NCBI GenBank assembly: GCA_944327625.1
Contig: CALVHL010000009.1
Location: forward strand, 1 to 64,000
Direction: 5' to 3'
Source: an uncultured Clostridia bacterium
Lineage (GTDB): Bacteria; Bacillota; Clostridia; Christensenellales; Borkfalkiaceae
DNA length: 64,000 nt
Positions 10,516 through 18,730 of this stretch are shown here, in pieces; within the stretch, counting starts at the first letter, position 1, and each line of letters begins with the position of its first letter. The position numbers and the translations under genes are program-made. The notes under the pieces are model-generated. The model did no database searches. It saw nothing but the letters and a program-made list of their open reading frames with translations, and was not told the DNA's origin.

Positions 10516-10622
10516 AATTTCTTTCTCCTTACGCTTTAACTTATTTGCCGCCCCGTCCGTAAAGTACGAAAAATTTTGACTTTTGCTGTCGATTGTTCAC
10601 ATACTTGCCTTTTTACAGCAAA

Positions 10623-10664
10623 CTTGACAGTTGACTTGACAGGTGTAAACTTTTGCTGTATACT
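10623..10664 (+). promoter_or_regulatory. nad operon promoter with candidate NiaR operator
   Basis: TTGACA (10636-10641), a 17-nt spacer and TATACT (10659-10664) form a near-consensus promoter. CTTGACAG occurs twice in direct orientation (10623-10630 and 10635-10642), followed by GTGTAAA. The reverse complement, TTTACACCTGTCAAG, resembles operators described for the niacin-responsive repressor NiaR in Firmicutes. One copy covers the -35, so bound repressor would block RNA polymerase. niaR itself is the third gene of the operon, so autoregulation is expected. Confidence 0.65.
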
Positions 10665-10692
10665 GCTTACAATCAAAGTTAAAGGCGGCATT

Positions 10693-12033
10693 ATGTATTC
10701 ACTTAAAGAAAGATATGACGTAATAATCGTCGGCACGGGCGTCGCGGGGCTAAACTGCGCGCTCAATCTGCCGCGCGACAAGCGCGTGCTCGTCTTATGC
10801 AAGAGCAAGATTACCGACTGTGACAGCTATCTGGCGCAGGGCGGAATATGCAGGCTGAGAAACGAGGGCGATTACGACAGCTACTATGAAGACACCATGC
10901 GCGCGGGGCATTACGAGAATAATCCTGCCGCGGTGGAGAGCATGATTAAGGGCTCGCAGGAGGTAATAGCCGACCTCGTCTCGCTGGGCGTCGAATTTGC
11001 CCGCGAGGAGGACGGTTCGTTCGCCTATACCAAGGAGGGGGGACACTCCTTCCCGAGGATATGCTATCACGAGGACAGCACGGGCAAGGAGATAACCACC
11101 ACCCTGCTTTCGGCAGTGAGAAAGCTTGACAACGTCGAGCTTGCCGAGCGGGTTACCATGCTCGACCTCATCGCCGACGGCAACGAATGCTTCGGCATAG
11201 TCGTGCTCGACAACGCGAGCGGCGAAGTGCATAAGATCTTCGGCGACTATACCGTGCTCGCGACGGGCGGGCTGGGCGGCGCTTTCGGCAATACTACCAA
11301 TTTCGGCATATTGAAGGGCGACGCGCTCGCCGTCTGCATAGATCGCGGCGTGGCTGTCGACAGAATTAACTATATTCAGGTGCATCCCACCTCGCTCTAT
11401 TCCAAAAAGCGCGGCCGCCGTTTCCTCATTTCGGAGTCGGTTCGCGGCGAGGGCGCATACCTTCTCGACAAGAACTTCAACCGCTTCACGGACGAGCTCA
11501 AACCGCGCGACGTCGTAAAGGACGCGGTATTCGCGCAGATGAAGAAGGACGGCACCAAGCACGTCTGGCTGGATATGCGGCACATTCCCGCAGAGAAGAT
11601 AGCGTCGCACTTCCCCGCCATCGTTCAGCGCTGCAAGGAGGAGGGGTATGACGTATTTACGGAGTGCATACCCGTCGTTCCCGCCATACACTATTTCATG
11701 GGCGGCATAAGGAGCGACCTCAAGGGCAGAACGACTATGTCGCGGCTGTACGCCGTCGGCGAAACGTGCTGCAACGGCGTTCACGGCAAGAACAGGCTGG
11801 CCTCCAACTCCCTGCTCGAAAGTCTGCTGTTCGCCAAGCGCGCGGCGCAGGACATAACGAGCGTATATTCCCCCGCCGAAAGCGAGGGGGAGAGCGCGGC
11901 GGTCGCGTCGCTCGACATGGATAAGTACAAAAACCCCAAGAAGTTGCTCGCAAAGTACAGGACGCAGGTAAGAAAGGCGGTAAAGGCGGCGTCCGAGGGC
12001 AAGGATATAAATATAAACTATAAGGAGAACTAA
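10693..12033 (+). CDS. nadB: L-aspartate oxidase
   Basis: A 446-residue flavoprotein that oxidises L-aspartate to iminoaspartate, the first step of de novo NAD synthesis. The FAD-binding GTGVAG is at residues 14-19. Family motifs are DSYLAQGGI near the N-terminus, VHPTSL, LISESVRGEGA, HYFMGGI and NRLASNSLLE. A longer frame opens at 10576, but it would run through the promoter. The ATG at 10693 follows AAAGGCGG. It is first in an operon with nadC and niaR. nadA (quinolinate synthase) is not in the operon or the window. Confidence 0.9.
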   Translation: MYSLKERYDVIIVGTGVAGLNCALNLPRDKRVLVLCKSKITDCDSYLAQGGICRLRNEGDYDSYYEDTMRAGHYENNPAAVESMIKGSQEVIADLVSLGVEFAREEDGSFAYTKEGGHSFPRICYHEDSTGKEITTTLLSAVRKLDNVELAERVTMLDLIADGNECFGIVVLDNASGEVHKIFGDYTVLATGGLGGAFGNTTNFGILKGDALAVCIDRGVAVDRINYIQVHPTSLYSKKRGRRFLISESVRGEGAYLLDKNFNRFTDELKPRDVVKDAVFAQMKKDGTKHVWLDMRHIPAEKIASHFPAIVQRCKEEGYDVFTECIPVVPAIHYFMGGIRSDLKGRTTMSRLYAVGETCCNGVHGKNRLASNSLLESLLFAKRAAQDITSVYSPAESEGESAAVASLDMDKYKNPKKLLAKYRTQVRKAVKAASEGKDININYKEN

Positions 12034-12036
12034 GTT

Positions 12037-12900
12037 ATGAACAACCTCACCGAAAAGATGATAATGGACAGGCTCATTCAGCAGGCGTTAGAGGAGGACA
12101 TCGGCAACGAGGACGTCACCACCAACGCCGTTATGCCCGAATACAAGAAGGGCATGGTCAAGCTCATTGCCAAGCAGGACGGCATCATCTGCGGACTCAA
12201 CGTGTTCGAGAGGGCGTTCAAACTGCTCGACGAGGGCACGACGGTCGCAAAGTTCGTCAAGGACGGCGACGAAATAAAGAAAGGTCAGCGCCTCGCCGTC
12301 GTTTCGGGCGACATTCGCGTACTGCTCTCGGGCGAGCGCGTCGCGCTTAACTACCTGCAGCGCATGAGCGGCATTGCAACCTACACGAGGAGCGTCGTAA
12401 AACTGCTCGAAGGCTGCAAAACCCGACTGCTCGACACCCGCAAGACCGCGCCCAATATGCGCGTGTTTGAAAAGTATGCCGTAAGGGTGGGCGGCGGCAA
12501 CAATCACCGCTACAACCTCTCGGACGGAGTGCTGCTCAAAGACAACCACATCGGCGCGGCGGGCGGCGTTAAAAAGGCGGTTGAAATGGCAAGGGCTTAC
12601 GCGCCGTTCGTAAGGAAGATCGAGGTAGAGGTAGAAAACCTCGATATGTGCAGGGAAGCGCTCGAAGCGGGCGCTGACATAATAATGCTCGACAATATGT
12701 CCGTCGAGGATATGAAGGCGGCGGTTAAGATGATAGACGGCAGGGCGATCACCGAATGCAGCGGCAACGTCACGCTCGAAAATATAGCAAATATCAGGGA
12801 AACGGGCGTGGACTTCGTGTCCAGCGGCGCGCTTACCCATTCCGCGCCCATACTCGACCTGTCGCTCAAAGAGCTTCATCCCGAGGAGGACGACAAGTGA
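12037..12900 (+). CDS. nadC: nicotinate-nucleotide pyrophosphorylase (quinolinate phosphoribosyltransferase)
   Basis: A 287-residue enzyme converting quinolinate and PRPP to nicotinate mononucleotide, CO2 and PPi. Typical segments are LEEDIGNEDVTT at the N-terminus, SGERVALNYLQRMSGIAT, LLDTRKTAPNMR (phosphate-binding Arg/Lys), GGGNNHRYNLSDGVLLKDNH and the C-terminal barrel with DIIMLDN. It lies 3 nt after nadB with AAGGAG upstream, so the two are cotranscribed. Its last codons overlap the GTG of niaR. Confidence 0.94.
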   Translation: MNNLTEKMIMDRLIQQALEEDIGNEDVTTNAVMPEYKKGMVKLIAKQDGIICGLNVFERAFKLLDEGTTVAKFVKDGDEIKKGQRLAVVSGDIRVLLSGERVALNYLQRMSGIATYTRSVVKLLEGCKTRLLDTRKTAPNMRVFEKYAVRVGGGNNHRYNLSDGVLLKDNHIGAAGGVKKAVEMARAYAPFVRKIEVEVENLDMCREALEAGADIIMLDNMSVEDMKAAVKMIDGRAITECSGNVTLENIANIRETGVDFVSSGALTHSAPILDLSLKELHPEEDDK

Positions 12901-13406
12901 AAGCCACACAGCGGCGTCAACTTATCATAGAGAGCATAGCTTCGTCGGCGACGGCGGTATCTGCGGGCGCGCTCGCCGAAAAGTTCGGCGTGTCTCGCCA
13001 GGTGATAGTGCAGGACATAGCCCTGCTCCGCGCAAACGGGTACGAGGTCATCTCGACGAGCCGCGGCTATCTTTTAGACGGCGGCGGGCTGAGGAGCAGG
13101 GTATTCAAGTGCCGTCATCCGCTTGAAAAACTCGTCGACGAGAGCGAGATCATAATCTCGCGCGGCGGCAGGATAGACGACGTGTTCGTCAGCCACAGGG
13201 TGTACGGCAAGATCTCGGCGAAATTGGGGCTTTCTACCATGACTCACGCCGAGGAGCTCTACCGTTCGCTCAAATCGGGCGCGTCCAAGCCGCTTATGAG
13301 CGTGACCGACGGCTATCACTATCACACGGTCAGCGCCGACAGCGAGCAGGCGCTCGACGACATAGCCGAGGCGCTCCGCGAGGCGGGCTATCTCATAGAG
13401 ATATAA
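12897..13406 (+). CDS. niaR: niacin-responsive transcriptional repressor NiaR
   Basis: A 169-residue repressor of NAD synthesis genes. The N-terminal winged helix (about residues 5-60; ALAEKFGVSRQVIVQDIALLRANG) is followed by the 3H ligand-binding domain with His residues in CRHPLEKL, SHRVYG and DGYHYH, which bind nicotinic acid through a metal. The start is GTG at 12897, overlapping the nadC stop as GTGA, with GAGGAGG inside nadC. A longer upstream frame is rejected because it would overlap most of the end of nadC. Likely target: the CTTGACAG repeats at 10623-10642. Confidence 0.88.
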   Translation: MKATQRRQLIIESIASSATAVSAGALAEKFGVSRQVIVQDIALLRANGYEVISTSRGYLLDGGGLRSRVFKCRHPLEKLVDESEIIISRGGRIDDVFVSHRVYGKISAKLGLSTMTHAEELYRSLKSGASKPLMSVTDGYHYHTVSADSEQALDDIAEALREAGYLIEI

Positions 13407-15615: not shown

Positions 15616-16989
15616 CTATCTTCTCAGGCTGTATTTATGCCCGTCGAAGGAGACGAGCCCGTTCTTCTTCATCCTGTCGAGAATGTGCTTTACGTTCTCG
15701 GAGGGCAGGTTGACCATTGAGGCAAGTTCGCCCGCGCTCGCCGTCCGCCGTTCGGTAAGGCAGTCGACGATGAGCGAATATTGTAGCGGTCTGACGGGCG
15801 CCGCCCTGCGCCTTTCGTCTTGCTCGCTCTCGGCGTTTTCGCCGCAGAAGTAGAGAACGAGGCGTATTTCGTCGGGATCGAAACTCTCCTCGAATACGGG
15901 CGTCGCCCAGCCCTTTCTGCGCCACAGCGAATATATGGCGGGTATGCCGCTGCCCGAGCCGTTGCCGATGCCCAGCTTTGCGAACAGATTTTTCGTCGCC
16001 TCGTTGCGGGGCGCGGAAACGCCGCCCCTTTTCGCCTCGTCAATGTCCGTGCGGAAGCGGCCGCCGTTGATGAATTCCATTCGGTCGCCCTCTTTTATGA
16101 CCGTCACGCCCCGCCCGTCGGAATAATCGGCGTTCGCTACTGCGTTGAACAGCGCCTCGCACAGCGCGTTATAAACCGCCATTCCGTCGGCGTAAGCCGC
16201 CATGCGCTCGCATACGGCGAAATAGAAGGAGTAGAGGTTGCAGCTCTCGGCGCTGTCGGGCGCAATTCCGCCCTCGCCGTCGCGGTATTCAAGGCTGAAA
16301 GCGGGGTAGTATCGCCCTATCATCTCCCGCCTGCCGAATGTGAGAAGCGCCGCGCAGGTGGGGTGCAGGCGGGTATCTCTGCCCTTTTTCGCCGCGCCTA
16401 TGCGTTTGAGAAAGCTTATGTCCGAACCCTCGCTCTGTCGCCCTTCAAGCGTTTCCAGCCTTATCCTGAAATCTCTTACGCAGTCGAAGTCGAGTGCGGA
16501 CAGTCCGCTCTTGATAACCCTCGCGTCGCCCGCCGTCGAGCGCGCGTCTTTGAGCATTGCCGTGACAAGGTTGGGCTTGCAGATATAGTCGCCCTCGCCG
16601 TTCCTTAAATACGTGCCCGTGTACGGGTTGTCGCCGATATACACGGGGCGGTCGAAGCGGGAGGCGCGCGGCACGGTTATGACGACTATGCGTTTGCCCT
16701 CATAGTCGACCTTTTTTACGTCCTTTGCCGTAAGCACTACGGCGCTCACCCGCCGCTTGTCGCGCACGGTCCGCCAGAAAGTATCGACAAGCTTATCCCT
16801 GTTGGGCAGGTCAATCGCCGAAAGCGAGTGGTCCTTTTTCTCCTCGACGCCCAGCAGAATAACGCCGCCCATGGTGTTGGCGAAGGAAGAATAGGTCTCC
16901 CACAGGCTCTTGGGGAAGCCGCCCAGCGCCTTTTTGGCCTCTATGCGGTTATTTTCGGTGTATTCGTCGATTTTAAGATAGTCAATCAT
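15616..16989 (-). CDS. AlbA_2-domain ATP-binding transcriptional regulator
   Basis: A 457-residue protein of the Schlafen/AlbA_2 type. Residues about 8-130 form the AlbA_2 domain (NRIEAKKAL, SFANTMGGVILLGVEE). A central RecG-C/HATPase_c_4 region follows with NALCEALFNAVANADY and the Gly-rich LGIGNGSGSGIPAI. A C-terminal winged helix covers about the last 65 residues (ASAGELASMVNLPSENVKHILDRM). Such proteins act as DNA-binding regulators or stress factors; the target is unknown. The ATG at 16989 has GAGGAG 8 nt upstream; a 5-codon longer start is possible. It has its own extended -10 promoter and lies downstream of the small-peptide operon on the same strand. Confidence 0.8.
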   Translation of the reverse strand: MIDYLKIDEYTENNRIEAKKALGGFPKSLWETYSSFANTMGGVILLGVEEKKDHSLSAIDLPNRDKLVDTFWRTVRDKRRVSAVVLTAKDVKKVDYEGKRIVVITVPRASRFDRPVYIGDNPYTGTYLRNGEGDYICKPNLVTAMLKDARSTAGDARVIKSGLSALDFDCVRDFRIRLETLEGRQSEGSDISFLKRIGAAKKGRDTRLHPTCAALLTFGRREMIGRYYPAFSLEYRDGEGGIAPDSAESCNLYSFYFAVCERMAAYADGMAVYNALCEALFNAVANADYSDGRGVTVIKEGDRMEFINGGRFRTDIDEAKRGGVSAPRNEATKNLFAKLGIGNGSGSGIPAIYSLWRRKGWATPVFEESFDPDEIRLVLYFCGENAESEQDERRRAAPVRPLQYSLIVDCLTERRTASAGELASMVNLPSENVKHILDRMKKNGLVSFDGHKYSLRR

Positions 16990-17008
16990 CGGCAAGCTCC
17001 TCACGGCG

Positions 17009-17164: not shown

Positions 17165-17203
17165 AAAAATAAAGTGCGCCGCGGCGTTAGCCCGCCGCGG
17201 CGC
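17165..17203 (-). terminator. intrinsic terminator of the small-peptide operon
   Basis: A perfect 11-bp stem GCGCCGCGGCG / CGCCGCGGCGC (17176-17203) is followed on the minus strand by ACTTTATTTTT. It lies 28 nt beyond the last small peptide gene. Confidence 0.85.
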
Positions 17204-17231
17204 AAGAATTTGTCATAAGTGTTTTTTGTTT

Positions 17232-17330
17232 TTATCTGCCCATGTTGAACAATACGTATGCGAGGGGTGATACGCCGATCGCATTCTTATCGCTGTCCAT
17301 TGCGGATAAGTTTTCGTAGAAATCTGTCAT
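17232..17330 (-). CDS. small peptide 3 of a three-peptide operon (32 residues), paralogue of peptide 1
   Basis: A 32-residue peptide starting MTDFYENL and ending IGVSPLAYVLFNMGR. It has an excellent Shine-Dalgarno sequence, GGGAGGT, 6 nt before the ATG at 17330. Aligned without gaps to peptide 1 of the same operon (17565-17663), 12 of 32 positions are identical: Met1, Tyr5, Glu6, Leu8, the block Gly19-Val-Ser-Pro-Leu23, Tyr25, Val26 and the terminal Arg32. It has no signal peptide, no membrane segment and no cysteine. It is followed by a strong terminator. The family is not recognised; the function is unknown. Confidence 0.75.
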   Translation of the reverse strand: MTDFYENLSAMDSDKNAIGVSPLAYVLFNMGR

Positions 17331-17410
17331 AACAGCACCTCCCTTTTAAATATTGAATGTTTTTTGCGGCAGTGCGCACCCGCGGTGCGCCGTATTGACG
17401 CGTCCTTAAA

Positions 17411-17515
17411 TCAGATGTTCTCCGACCAGTTGGAAAGGCGGTTCTTGGAAGAGCCCTGCGCCGACCATGTAGCCATATTCATGGAGAAGAGAAAATTTTT
17501 AATTATATTATTCAT
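17411..17515 (-). CDS. small peptide 2 of a three-peptide operon (34 residues)
   Basis: A 34-residue peptide starting MNNIIKNFLFSMNMATW and ending LSNWSENI, with two Trp and many Ser/Asn residues. The Shine-Dalgarno sequence GCGAGGT lies 10 nt before the ATG at 17515. It is not similar to the two flanking peptides. Between it and peptide 3 there is a hairpin GCGCACC/GGTGCGC (17374-17390) without a T tail, which may set the relative amounts of the cistrons. There is no maturation enzyme nearby. The function is unknown. Confidence 0.65.
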   Translation of the reverse strand: MNNIIKNFLFSMNMATWSAQGSSKNRLSNWSENI

Positions 17516-17564
17516 AATATCTATTACCTCGCTTTAAAGTATTTATATATCTGTCGTCAGCTTT

Positions 17565-17663
17565 TTATCTTGCACAGTCAAGGACGACGTAAGAAAGGGG
17601 GCTCACCCCGTAGAATTCGTTTCTTTCTTCAAGACTTGCAAGCCTTTCATAAATCATTTCCAT
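17565..17663 (-). CDS. small peptide 1 of a three-peptide operon (32 residues), paralogue of peptide 3
   Basis: A 32-residue peptide, MEMIYERLASLEERNE at the start and YGVSPLSYVVLDCAR at the end. AGGAGGT lies 10 nt before the ATG at 17663. The same frame extends 38 codons upstream to 17777, but no upstream ATG has a ribosome site and the frame enters the promoter, so the short form is preferred. The N-terminal half predicts a charged helix; the C-terminal half is the GVSPLxYV block shared with peptide 3. It contains one Cys (residue 30). The function is unknown. Confidence 0.75.
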   Translation of the reverse strand: MEMIYERLASLEERNEFYGVSPLSYVVLDCAR

Positions 17664-17767
17664 ATTATCTGTTACCTCCTGTGGGTATATCCGCGTCAGG
17701 TCGTATCCCCTGCCGCATCGTATGCTTACGCATTGAAATACGAACATCTCCGTCCGTTTTCGTTTGT

Positions 17768-17796
17768 AGTATATCATCTGAAAAAATGTTAGTCAA
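17768..17796 (-). promoter_or_regulatory. promoter of the small-peptide operon
   Basis: On the minus strand TTGACT (17796-17791), exactly 17 nt, and TATACT (17773-17768). The predicted start is near 17761, leaving a leader of about 100 nt before peptide 1. Confidence 0.75.
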
Positions 17797-18000
17797 TGAC
17801 AAACCGCAAATTTTTTTAAATGTAGAAAATGTTTGATTATAACATAAATATATGATAAAGCCGATTATTTATGTTAATTTAAAGTGTTAAAATTAAAATT
17901 TTGTTGTAAACTTTCATAATTCCCAAAATTTAACATAACTGAACACTTTTAATTTCCCGTATAATATAACCGCTAAAATGTAACCTCAAACGCCGCGTAT
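17797..18000. promoter_or_regulatory. AT-rich intergenic region with nested inverted repeats upstream of the peptide operon
   Basis: About 200 nt of markedly AT-rich DNA in a GC-rich chromosome, with no gene. AACATAAATA (17841-17850) and TATTTATGTT (17866-17875) form a perfect 10-bp inverted repeat with a 15-nt gap. A second imperfect pair is TTAAAGTGTT (17879-17888) with AACACTTTTAA (17942-17952). A TATAAT at about 17960 faces the plus strand but no plus-strand gene follows. The arrangement looks like a regulator-binding upstream region for the small-peptide promoter. Confidence 0.45.
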
Positions 18001-18064: not shown

Positions 18065-18730
18065 TCATTTTGAAGAAATTTCGAGATAATCCTCGGGGTT
18101 TGCAAGTTCCCCGTCGTCATATATTGCAAAGTGAAGGTGAGGGCCGAGCGCGAATTCCGCGCCGTTCGCCTCGGCGATCGTGCCTATAACTTCGCCGCGC
18201 GCAATGCTCTGTCCTGCTTCCAGCCCTTCTGCGGCATCGATGTAGGAATAGACCGTCTTTATGCCGTTATCGTGGGCTATCGTCACCGTCGTGCCGTTGA
18301 GACGGTCGCCCTCGACAATGCTCTCTATCGTGCCGTCGAGACAGGAAACTACCTCGGTGCCTGCGTCTGCGGCGAAATCAAGCCCGCTGTGGAAGTGATA
18401 GTGTCCGAGCGTCGCGTCCTTGCAGAAGACGTAACCCGTCACTATCTCTACTTCGGAAACGGGCAGGGCGAAGGTGTCGTCCGTCGCGGTGGGGGTATCG
18501 TCCTCGTCGTCATCGTCGGGCGTCTGGTTCTGACCGTCGTCCTCGTCGTCCTCGTCGTCGGGCTGCTCGATGTCCTCGTTGCCCTTGTCGACCGACTGGA
18601 AGCCCCTGCCCCAGTCGTTGGCGGCAAATACGCAGGTCACGGTCACCGCCGCAATCACCAGAATGCACGCCGCCAGGATAAGCGACCTTGCGATAAGCTT
18701 TCTCTTTGTCATCCTTTTTTGTTCGTTCAT
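18065..18730 (-). CDS. membrane-anchored M23 family peptidase, SpoIIQ-like
   Basis: A 221-residue protein with an N-terminal membrane anchor (about residues 13-35), a very acidic Asp/Glu linker (about 50-85) and a C-terminal LytM/M23 domain. Zinc ligands are visible in HFHSGLDFAADAGTEV and GPHLHFAIYDDGEL. This architecture fits SpoIIQ, the forespore partner of SpoIIIAH in the engulfment channel, or a cell-wall endopeptidase. The ATG at 18730 has AAGGAG 10 nt upstream. On the minus strand GTATA (18816-18812) and GGCAATAAT (about 18800-18792) vaguely resemble a sigma-F/G promoter, which would support the sporulation reading, but this is weak. No other sporulation gene is adjacent. Confidence 0.7.
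   Translation of the reverse strand: MNEQKRMTKRKLIARSLILAACILVIAAVTVTCVFAANDWGRGFQSVDKGNEDIEQPDDEDDEDDGQNQTPDDDDEDDTPTATDDTFALPVSEVEIVTGYVFCKDATLGHYHFHSGLDFAADAGTEVVSCLDGTIESIVEGDRLNGTTVTIAHDNGIKTVYSYIDAAEGLEAGQSIARGEVIGTIAEANGAEFALGPHLHFAIYDDGELANPEDYLEISSK

Follow-up and report, generated by a model that had tools for sequence, protein, structure and literature searches.

A near-constant promoter-operator element precedes an exchangeable operon of leaderless micropeptides in gut Clostridia

The window analysed here, 64,000 nucleotides from an uncultured Clostridia bacterium, carries on its minus strand (17175-17796) a complete unit of promoter, three short genes and terminator. Comparison with related genomes shows that a near-constant promoter-operator element of 112 bp, termed R1, is placed so as to drive an exchangeable operon of leaderless micropeptides. 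The payload behind R1 consists of one to six leaderless micropeptides of about 16 to 48 aa, and it spans several families, at least some of which are unrelated by sequence. Both the conserved element and the genus-wide variation of the payload were overlooked in an earlier note on this stretch, which had described the operon from its letters. Named records with family A, the most widespread peptide family, are 'Candidatus Coproplasma' species and gut Clostridia metagenome-assembled genomes (MAGs; 40 loci), which suggests that the genus of the window is one of Candidatus Coproplasma-type gut Clostridia.

The window operon and its peptides

The features of the operon and its two flanking genes are as follows.

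17768..17879, minus strand: regulatory element R1 (upstream half-sites, UP-element-like A/T tract, operator and promoter), E 2.3e-18
17830..17844: operator 2, TGTTATAATCAAACA, 43 bp upstream of operator 1, start to start
17787..17801: operator 1, TGTCATTGACTAACA (genus consensus TGTTATTGACTAACA), overlapping the -35 box, from alignment and pattern search
17768..17796, minus strand: promoter TTGACT-17-TATACT, 10 of 12 consensus matches, TG before the -10 box
17565..17663, minus strand: micropeptide 1, family A, 32 aa, MEMIYERLASLEERNEFYGVSPLSYVVLDCAR, from profile match and pN/pS
17411..17515, minus strand: micropeptide 2, family H, 34 aa, MNNIIKNFLFSMNMATWSAQGSSKNRLSNWSENI, from occurrence in 4 of 93 genomes and pN/pS
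17232..17330, minus strand: micropeptide 3, divergent family A paralogue, 32 aa, MTDFYENLSAMDSDKNAIGVSPLAYVLFNMGR, profile E 1.4e-14
17175..17204, minus strand: intrinsic terminator, 12-pair stem (11 of the pairs G-C), then CTTTATTTTT
18065..18730, minus strand: M23 peptidase gene (Pfam PF01551), the upstream neighbour, which marks a conserved address
15616..17004, minus strand: SLFN_AlbA_2 plus RecG-C-like protein (Pfam), the downstream neighbour, outside the system

The three ORFs are preceded by the Shine-Dalgarno (SD) sequences AGGAGGT, GAGGT and GGGAGGTG, respectively. A count by eye over a gap-free alignment gives 12 identical positions of 32 between peptides 1 and 3, among them GVSPL.YV and the final Arg; both match the family A profile. 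Peptide 2 falls in a family of its own, with no link to family A in a profile comparison (hhalign A-H, E 0.6), and the window cargo is two family A paralogues plus one peptide from another family. The promoter, the three SD-led genes, the terminator, the paralogy of peptides 1 and 3 and the distinctness of peptide 2 are all as the earlier note had described them.

A search with peptide 1 returned matches in 31 of 201 family genomes at E<=1. Within the genus (24 genomes, E<=0.007) the matches are short ORFs with a start codon, and usually an SD, in the 23 loci read of these 24, the genome of the last, L017, being covered instead by locus L058; those in 7 genomes of other genera (E 0.24-0.72) we read as chance. 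The family A profile A1, an alignment of 41 peptides, matched 79 of the 93 genus genomes at E<=1, including seven with a best E >0.2 that are likewise read as chance matches, and family A is convincing in 72 of 93 (E below 1e-8), with up to 5 family-A-like copies per catalogued site. Convincing matches in the order sample were confined to the genus (8 of 296 genomes, the eighth, at E 0.007, lying inside a 749-aa frame). Family H is rarer than family A: at E<=1.4e-7 it matches 4 of the 93 genus genomes, and another four matches, at E 0.005-0.07, we regard as probable chance. All these related genomes are MAGs or unnamed entries, and contig-end breaks hide some of their operons.

Nei-Gojobori counting across the operons of the window and of its two nearest relatives gave pN/pS values of 0.14-0.18 for peptide 1, 0.27-0.33 for peptide 2 and 0.19-0.34 for peptide 3, or 0.25 for the trio pooled. 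Fifteen further gap-free pairs, chosen by hand, gave a pooled value of 0.20 (range 0.08-0.68), the two highest being 0.68, on 4 differences, and 0.55 (L193/L194). By these measures the micropeptides look like real genes under purifying selection. The earlier note had argued for selection on the peptides and had proposed a homologue search and a comparison of synonymous with nonsynonymous rates, both of which came out in its favour.

No named family was matched by the three window peptides, and the earlier note likewise knew none with the GVSPLxYV core: family A had nothing over the cut-off in Pfam, NCBIfam, PHROGs or PADLOC, nor did peptide 2 or 10 other payload peptides in Pfam and NCBIfam. 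Phage and plasmid sequences gave no match to family A (one member searched against each), and neither did IMG/VR with the A1 alignment as query. Echoes below threshold were JetB (E=0.008, the best, in 2 of 41 family A members) and HokA (E=0.15, in 1 of 41). No published account of such a system was found in the literature searched, as seen in listings and the openings of abstracts, and core words from some of the payload peptides did not occur there.

The 134 catalogued peptides described below have a median length of 31 and a median net charge of -3 (range -9 to +7); the window peptides carry -3, +2 and -2, and families D, F and H are cationic. Exactly one Cys is present in 88 of the 134, and 94 end in Arg or Lys. 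With a median GRAVY of -0.1 and a median of 0.9 for the best 15-residue window, the catalogued peptides have no hydrophobic membrane-spanning segment. Inspection of the window peptides by eye found no signal sequence, in keeping with the earlier note. Eight columns of family A are invariant or nearly so, two of them N-terminal (Y5, L8) and six C-terminal (G19, L23, Y25, V26, L28, C30); this is not the leader/core layout of a RiPP precursor, and the RiPP-like nature that had been suggested is accordingly disfavoured. AlphaFold placed helices at 3-18 and 22-27 of peptide 1 with a turn at GVS (mean pLDDT 75.6, pTM 0.31), and a single helix at 2-33 of peptide 2 (mean pLDDT 84.5, pTM 0.42; 3 sequences); both models are modest and the chains very short. 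Family A is thus predicted to form a short helical hairpin, and peptide 2 a single helix.

The 112-bp element and its payload

A promoter of the same layout was present in 23 of 25 loci, the remaining two being cut near contig ends. Across the genus loci the inverted repeat TGTTA-TTGAC-TAACA covers the -35 box, a second repeat, TGTTA-N5-TAACA, begins 43 bp above it, and an additional TTAACA half-site lies ~40 bp above the second; an A/T tract spans the gap between the two lower repeats. The R1 model was built from sequence only, using 22 of the 23 stretches (L039, the most divergent promoter, was excluded), and over these 22 loci the 112-bp alignment has an average column identity of 81%. R1 matched 87 of the 93 genus genomes at E<=0.01, more than the family A peptides reach, although three matches are weak enough to doubt (G206, G073 and G221). 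The core pattern TGTKATTGACTRACA occurred 79 times in 72 of the 93 genus genomes and its reversed form 0 times; comparison of places by eye put all 79 at R1 elements. Operator 1 of the window, one base off the pattern (TGTC), is outside the 79. R1 occurs once per genome, sometimes twice, and no other use of the element was found; the second loci, read in eleven genomes, likewise lead to micropeptides.

R1 was found at E<=1e-4 in 10 of 247 genomes of the order sample, all in the genus or in g9 of the same family, one of them (G009) belonging with the weak, promoter-like matches described next. Three g9 genomes pair the element with the 16-aa peptide F, and one of the three does so twice. Eight further genomes outside the genus, one in g9, have R1 matches at E 9e-6 to 8e-4 with no micropeptide operon behind them on reading, and these look like a general strong promoter.

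Nine loci (L219-L226 and L231; g3, g7, g10 and the genus), as well as L218 in g9, share an A/T tract, GGTATTGACAAAC or a sequence near it, and GTGCTATAAT. This strong-looking promoter motif precedes various genes, none of them an Rfam gene at gathering score in the nine loci, and it is possibly a general strong promoter class in this family.

A wider regulon in the window genome was considered and rejected, as TGTTA-N5-TAACA with at most one mismatch occurred at 41 places versus 32 for the control. Two perfect places there adjoin longer genes, and TTGACT-N17-TATACT is present at 3 other places, at which ORFs of >=60 aa were examined. Some ~8-30 nt after the -10 box, a 5' leader hairpin of the form AATC(A/G)GG...CC(T/C)GATT was seen, with variable stem letters.

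Twenty-seven further R1 loci were read: the 11 second loci, two in genomes with convincing family A, and the rest in 14 of the 21 genomes that lack it. SD-led ORFs of 19-42 aa lie behind R1 in 26 of the 27. The exception, L199 in G073, is a weak element match (E 0.0012) directly 5' of a short GntR-type frame and two same-strand genes. A regular expression applied to the fetched loci gave 71 sites, from which 134 distinct peptides were catalogued; a few of these ORFs, for example one of 13 aa and one of 16 aa that is all-hydrophobic, are unlikely to be genes. Three of the 71 sites are without a catalogued peptide: the minus-strand site of L127, which is false, and two whose peptides the catalogue rules missed, namely L008, with two family A peptides, and L181, whose peptide starts with GTG. 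An SD-led ORF of 15-50 aa lies within 165 nt of 65 of the 71 element sites, compared to 915 of 20000 random places and 715 of 6540 AT-rich places in the same loci.

Payload families were grouped by eye. Those below are not the only ones, and further families exist.

Family A: GVSPLSYV
Family A7: MIF..L...MATLPLVYLAL
Family B, at second loci: MIYELF...FSGAFINAFLRTM
Family D: DLKT..RFY.AL.N
Family E: MKINF.KL...LFP.FS.FLNSA
Family F, 16-22 aa: M.F..WLRY..SL
Family H: window peptide 2
Cys-rich family: MDMY..LT.TC..HC

Single hhalign comparisons of small alignments linked A with A7 (E 6e-5, probability 65%), A7 with D (E 4e-6, 88%) and A with B (E 2e-4, 46%), and weakly A with E (E 0.004, 9%); A and D were not linked directly (E 0.15). 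Family A shares an operon with D or A7 at six loci (L022, L023, L026, L028, L127 and L137). Locus L075 has a six-peptide operon in which three tandem Cys-bearing peptides like MDMY.NLT.TC..HC are followed by two of family A and one more. Across 251 family genomes the DNA pattern for peptide F hit 6 places (control 0), each directly behind the element: 4 belong to g9 and 2 to the genus.

Chromosomal address and candidate regulators

An M23 gene, or a frame antisense to it, lies upstream in 15 of the 25 loci, and a GntR/aminotransferase (MocR-type) gene lies downstream in 14 of 25. The cargo between M23 and MocR is family A at some loci, family E at L184 and L186, F with another family at L190, and F at L192. 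At L185, family E is separated from MocR by one intervening gene, and at L195 family H and another family stand beside M23, with MocR not in view. Another address, by an adenine-deaminase-like gene, holds A and/or D. From reading of translations, not from a library result, we take several neighbours to be adenine deaminase, PdxY, formate-THF ligase and LacI. Few neighbours were identified with Pfam (two proteins, then the seven given, one of which had no match), the others being named by reading.

The earlier note had looked to the AlbA_2 gene for conserved synteny. Among 25 loci the SLFN_AlbA_2 gene adjoins the operon in just 3, those of the window and of its two closest relatives, whereas a MocR-type gene is downstream in 14 of the 22 others, and the SLFN_AlbA_2 plus RecG-C-like gene is probably a local insertion. 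Among the neighbours in the clustered loci, few of them Pfam-named, we recognised no modifying or processing enzyme, in agreement with the earlier note. No exporter or immunity gene was recognised there either, in the 25 loci and 30 more, again with few neighbours Pfam-named. As a whole, the earlier interpretation keeps its claims of selection, of no signal sequence and of no known family, whereas AlbA_2 synteny is not supported and the RiPP-like suggestion is disfavoured.

In neither the 25 loci nor the second loci does the same regulator gene always accompany the element. As a frequent neighbour, the MocR-type regulator is the obvious first candidate and could be the regulator of the element; a tblastn search of the 64-kb window found no MocR-like sequence, and no MocR-type gene was seen at the 11 second loci. 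LacI boxes have a central CG, with which the box here does not agree, and no LacI was among the ORFs read in the window neighbourhood; LacI was rejected as the regulator. Comparison with the boxes of Rex, GlnR/TnrA, CRP, LexA, ArgR, LacI and ComR found spacing or sequence unfit in each case. The Rgg-type receptor model TIGR01716 matched 0 of 41 genus genomes, with a positive control in Lactococcus lactis.

Several other associations were seen. At L173, L174, L175 and L179 the element lies behind a gene that is LacI-like by eye, with family B or C peptides; at L176, L180 and L187 the same association was judged from gene length alone. The LacI-like gene ends 150-260 bp before the end of the element, and 834 before it in L173. 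An XRE-type HTH gene (cluster c42, by eye) adjoins the operon at the related loci L046 and L047, the only such cases among the 25. Elsewhere in the window (10576-13406) there is, by eye, an NAD synthesis cluster, in which genes for L-aspartate oxidase and quinolinate phosphoribosyltransferase are followed by an HTH regulator.

Possible functions and comparison with known systems

The explanation we rank first, though tentatively and at less than even confidence, is that the operon encodes switch-gated effector peptides whose payload is turned over by antagonism. A dimeric DNA-binding protein, to which the symmetry of the sites alone points, would sit on the TGTTA-N5-TAACA sites and shut off or gate the strong promoter; on its release, the micropeptides would be made in bulk. 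They would be active as translated, needing neither leader removal nor modification, through a binding partner or the membrane, and a changing opponent or partner (competitor, phage or kin) would drive the turnover of the payload. Counted in favour are the spread of family A (72 of 93 genomes) and of R1 (87 of 93), the restriction of the core pattern to R1 (79 of 79), the presence of different families at one address, and the 16-aa peptide F behind the same element. Against it, the loci read showed no recognisable exporter or immunity gene next to the operon, as known leaderless bacteriocins would have; the catalogued peptides are mostly anionic, unlike leaderless bacteriocins, family A is genus-wide and not strain-specific, selection at short range is purifying and not diversifying, and MocR, a neighbour in 14 of 25 loci, had no match in the 64-kb window and was not seen at the 11 second loci.

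Ranked second, and possible without being probable, is that the peptides are intracellular regulators, small helical hairpins that, singly or as hetero-oligomers of co-expressed paralogues, would tune or inhibit one host protein, much as known small inhibitor proteins do inside cells. The lack of a signal sequence by eye, the mostly acidic composition, the common single Cys (88 of 134) and C-terminal Arg or Lys (94 of 134), purifying selection and the predicted hairpin all suit such a role, as do the modest profile links among A, A7, D and B and the operons that combine A with D or with A7. However, chemically distinct families (the 16-aa cationic F, the Cys-rich peptides and H) stand behind the same switch, which a single conserved target would not easily tolerate; effectors are placed ahead of regulators since a constant switch with partly unrelated cargo is hard to square with a single partner. 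A pheromone circuit of the SHP/ComS type, in which a cytoplasmic receptor-regulator would bind the palindromes and an exported and re-imported peptide would induce its own operon, is unlikely. Tiny leaderless ORFs do lie behind a palindromic box over the -35, and that box is found only at the peptide locus, as an autoinducing loop would predict, but the operons often carry several dissimilar peptides, no regulator gene is constant beside them, and the count of 0 of 41 genomes for TIGR01716, with its Lactococcus lactis control positive, disfavours signalling of the Rgg type. It is quite improbable that these are toxin or abortive-infection peptides that, like type I toxins, a repressor keeps silent until phage or stress frees them: the operator over the -35, the very small products, the tandem copies and the HokA (E=0.15, 1 of 41) and JetB (E=0.008, 2 of 41) echoes recall such systems, but the echoes are too weak to count, family A is near genus-wide, and the peptides are not membrane-spanning (GRAVY median -0.1, best 15-residue window 0.9). 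We give very little credence to a functional RNA with a 5' hairpin whose peptides are incidental. Of the 68 leaders, 33 have a stem of >=6 pairs within their first 38 nt, versus 13% of shuffles; against this, pN/pS is <=0.34 in 22 of 24 comparisons, an SD precedes the ORFs, 30 leaders picked by eye from the 68 aligned without a consensus structure, with loop lengths too varied, and L190 and L215, the two micropeptide-bearing element loci scanned, had no Rfam match at gathering score.

A bolder reading, which we give less than even odds, is that the locus is a micropeptide expression site, in which a dedicated, near-constant operator-promoter and unrelated peptides swapped between species would make up a weapon or recognition system. 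No firmer is the suggestion that its cargo of anionic hairpins, a 16-aa cationic helix and Cys-rich peptides would be diversity-generating in these uncultured gut Clostridia. Exchange of peptides behind a near-frozen switch is what an arsenal or recognition locus shows, here in bacteria with genomes of ~1.5-2 Mb and built from very short genes. Genes this short tend to escape gene callers, and the 112-bp element, the TGTTATTGACTAACA pattern and SD-led short ORFs together offer a handle for finding micropeptides under selection. The locus also poses the question of which shared property would let one switch serve both an anionic hairpin and a 16-aa cationic helix.

Among known systems, type I toxins (Ldr, Ibs, Hok) are similarly small, tandem and tightly controlled, but the peptides described here have too little hydrophobicity for a membrane span. 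SHP and ComS, which act with Rgg and ComR, are likewise tiny leaderless ORFs behind a palindromic box, whereas here no Rgg-type receptor was found in 41 genomes, none was recognised adjacent, and one to six often dissimilar peptides are encoded. The PSMs of staphylococci are leaderless short helical peptides encoded in tandem under one regulated promoter with an unlinked exporter, a close parallel in layout; PSM operons have AgrA direct repeats, in contrast to the palindromic operator here, and the predicted hairpin with its conserved Pro, Cys and Arg further sets the micropeptides apart by description.

The leaderless bacteriocins (aureocin A70, garvicin KS, cereucins) also have tandem leaderless genes and several peptides per operon, with lengths of about 30-34 aa in aureocin A70 and garvicin KS, and the window operon and the catalogue are, like them, small, without a leader by eye and often tandem. 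Leaderless bacteriocin clusters carry export or immunity genes, in contrast to the loci here, where none was recognised nearby. Leaderless bacteriocins are net cationic, according to a review (PMC6131525), whereas the peptides here are mostly anionic (median -3). We keep the operon out of that group on account of this charge and of the lack of a recognised export or immunity gene. Placed neither in it nor among the PSMs on this comparison, the operon resembles in its organisation a regulated, multi-peptide operon of the leaderless bacteriocin or PSM type.
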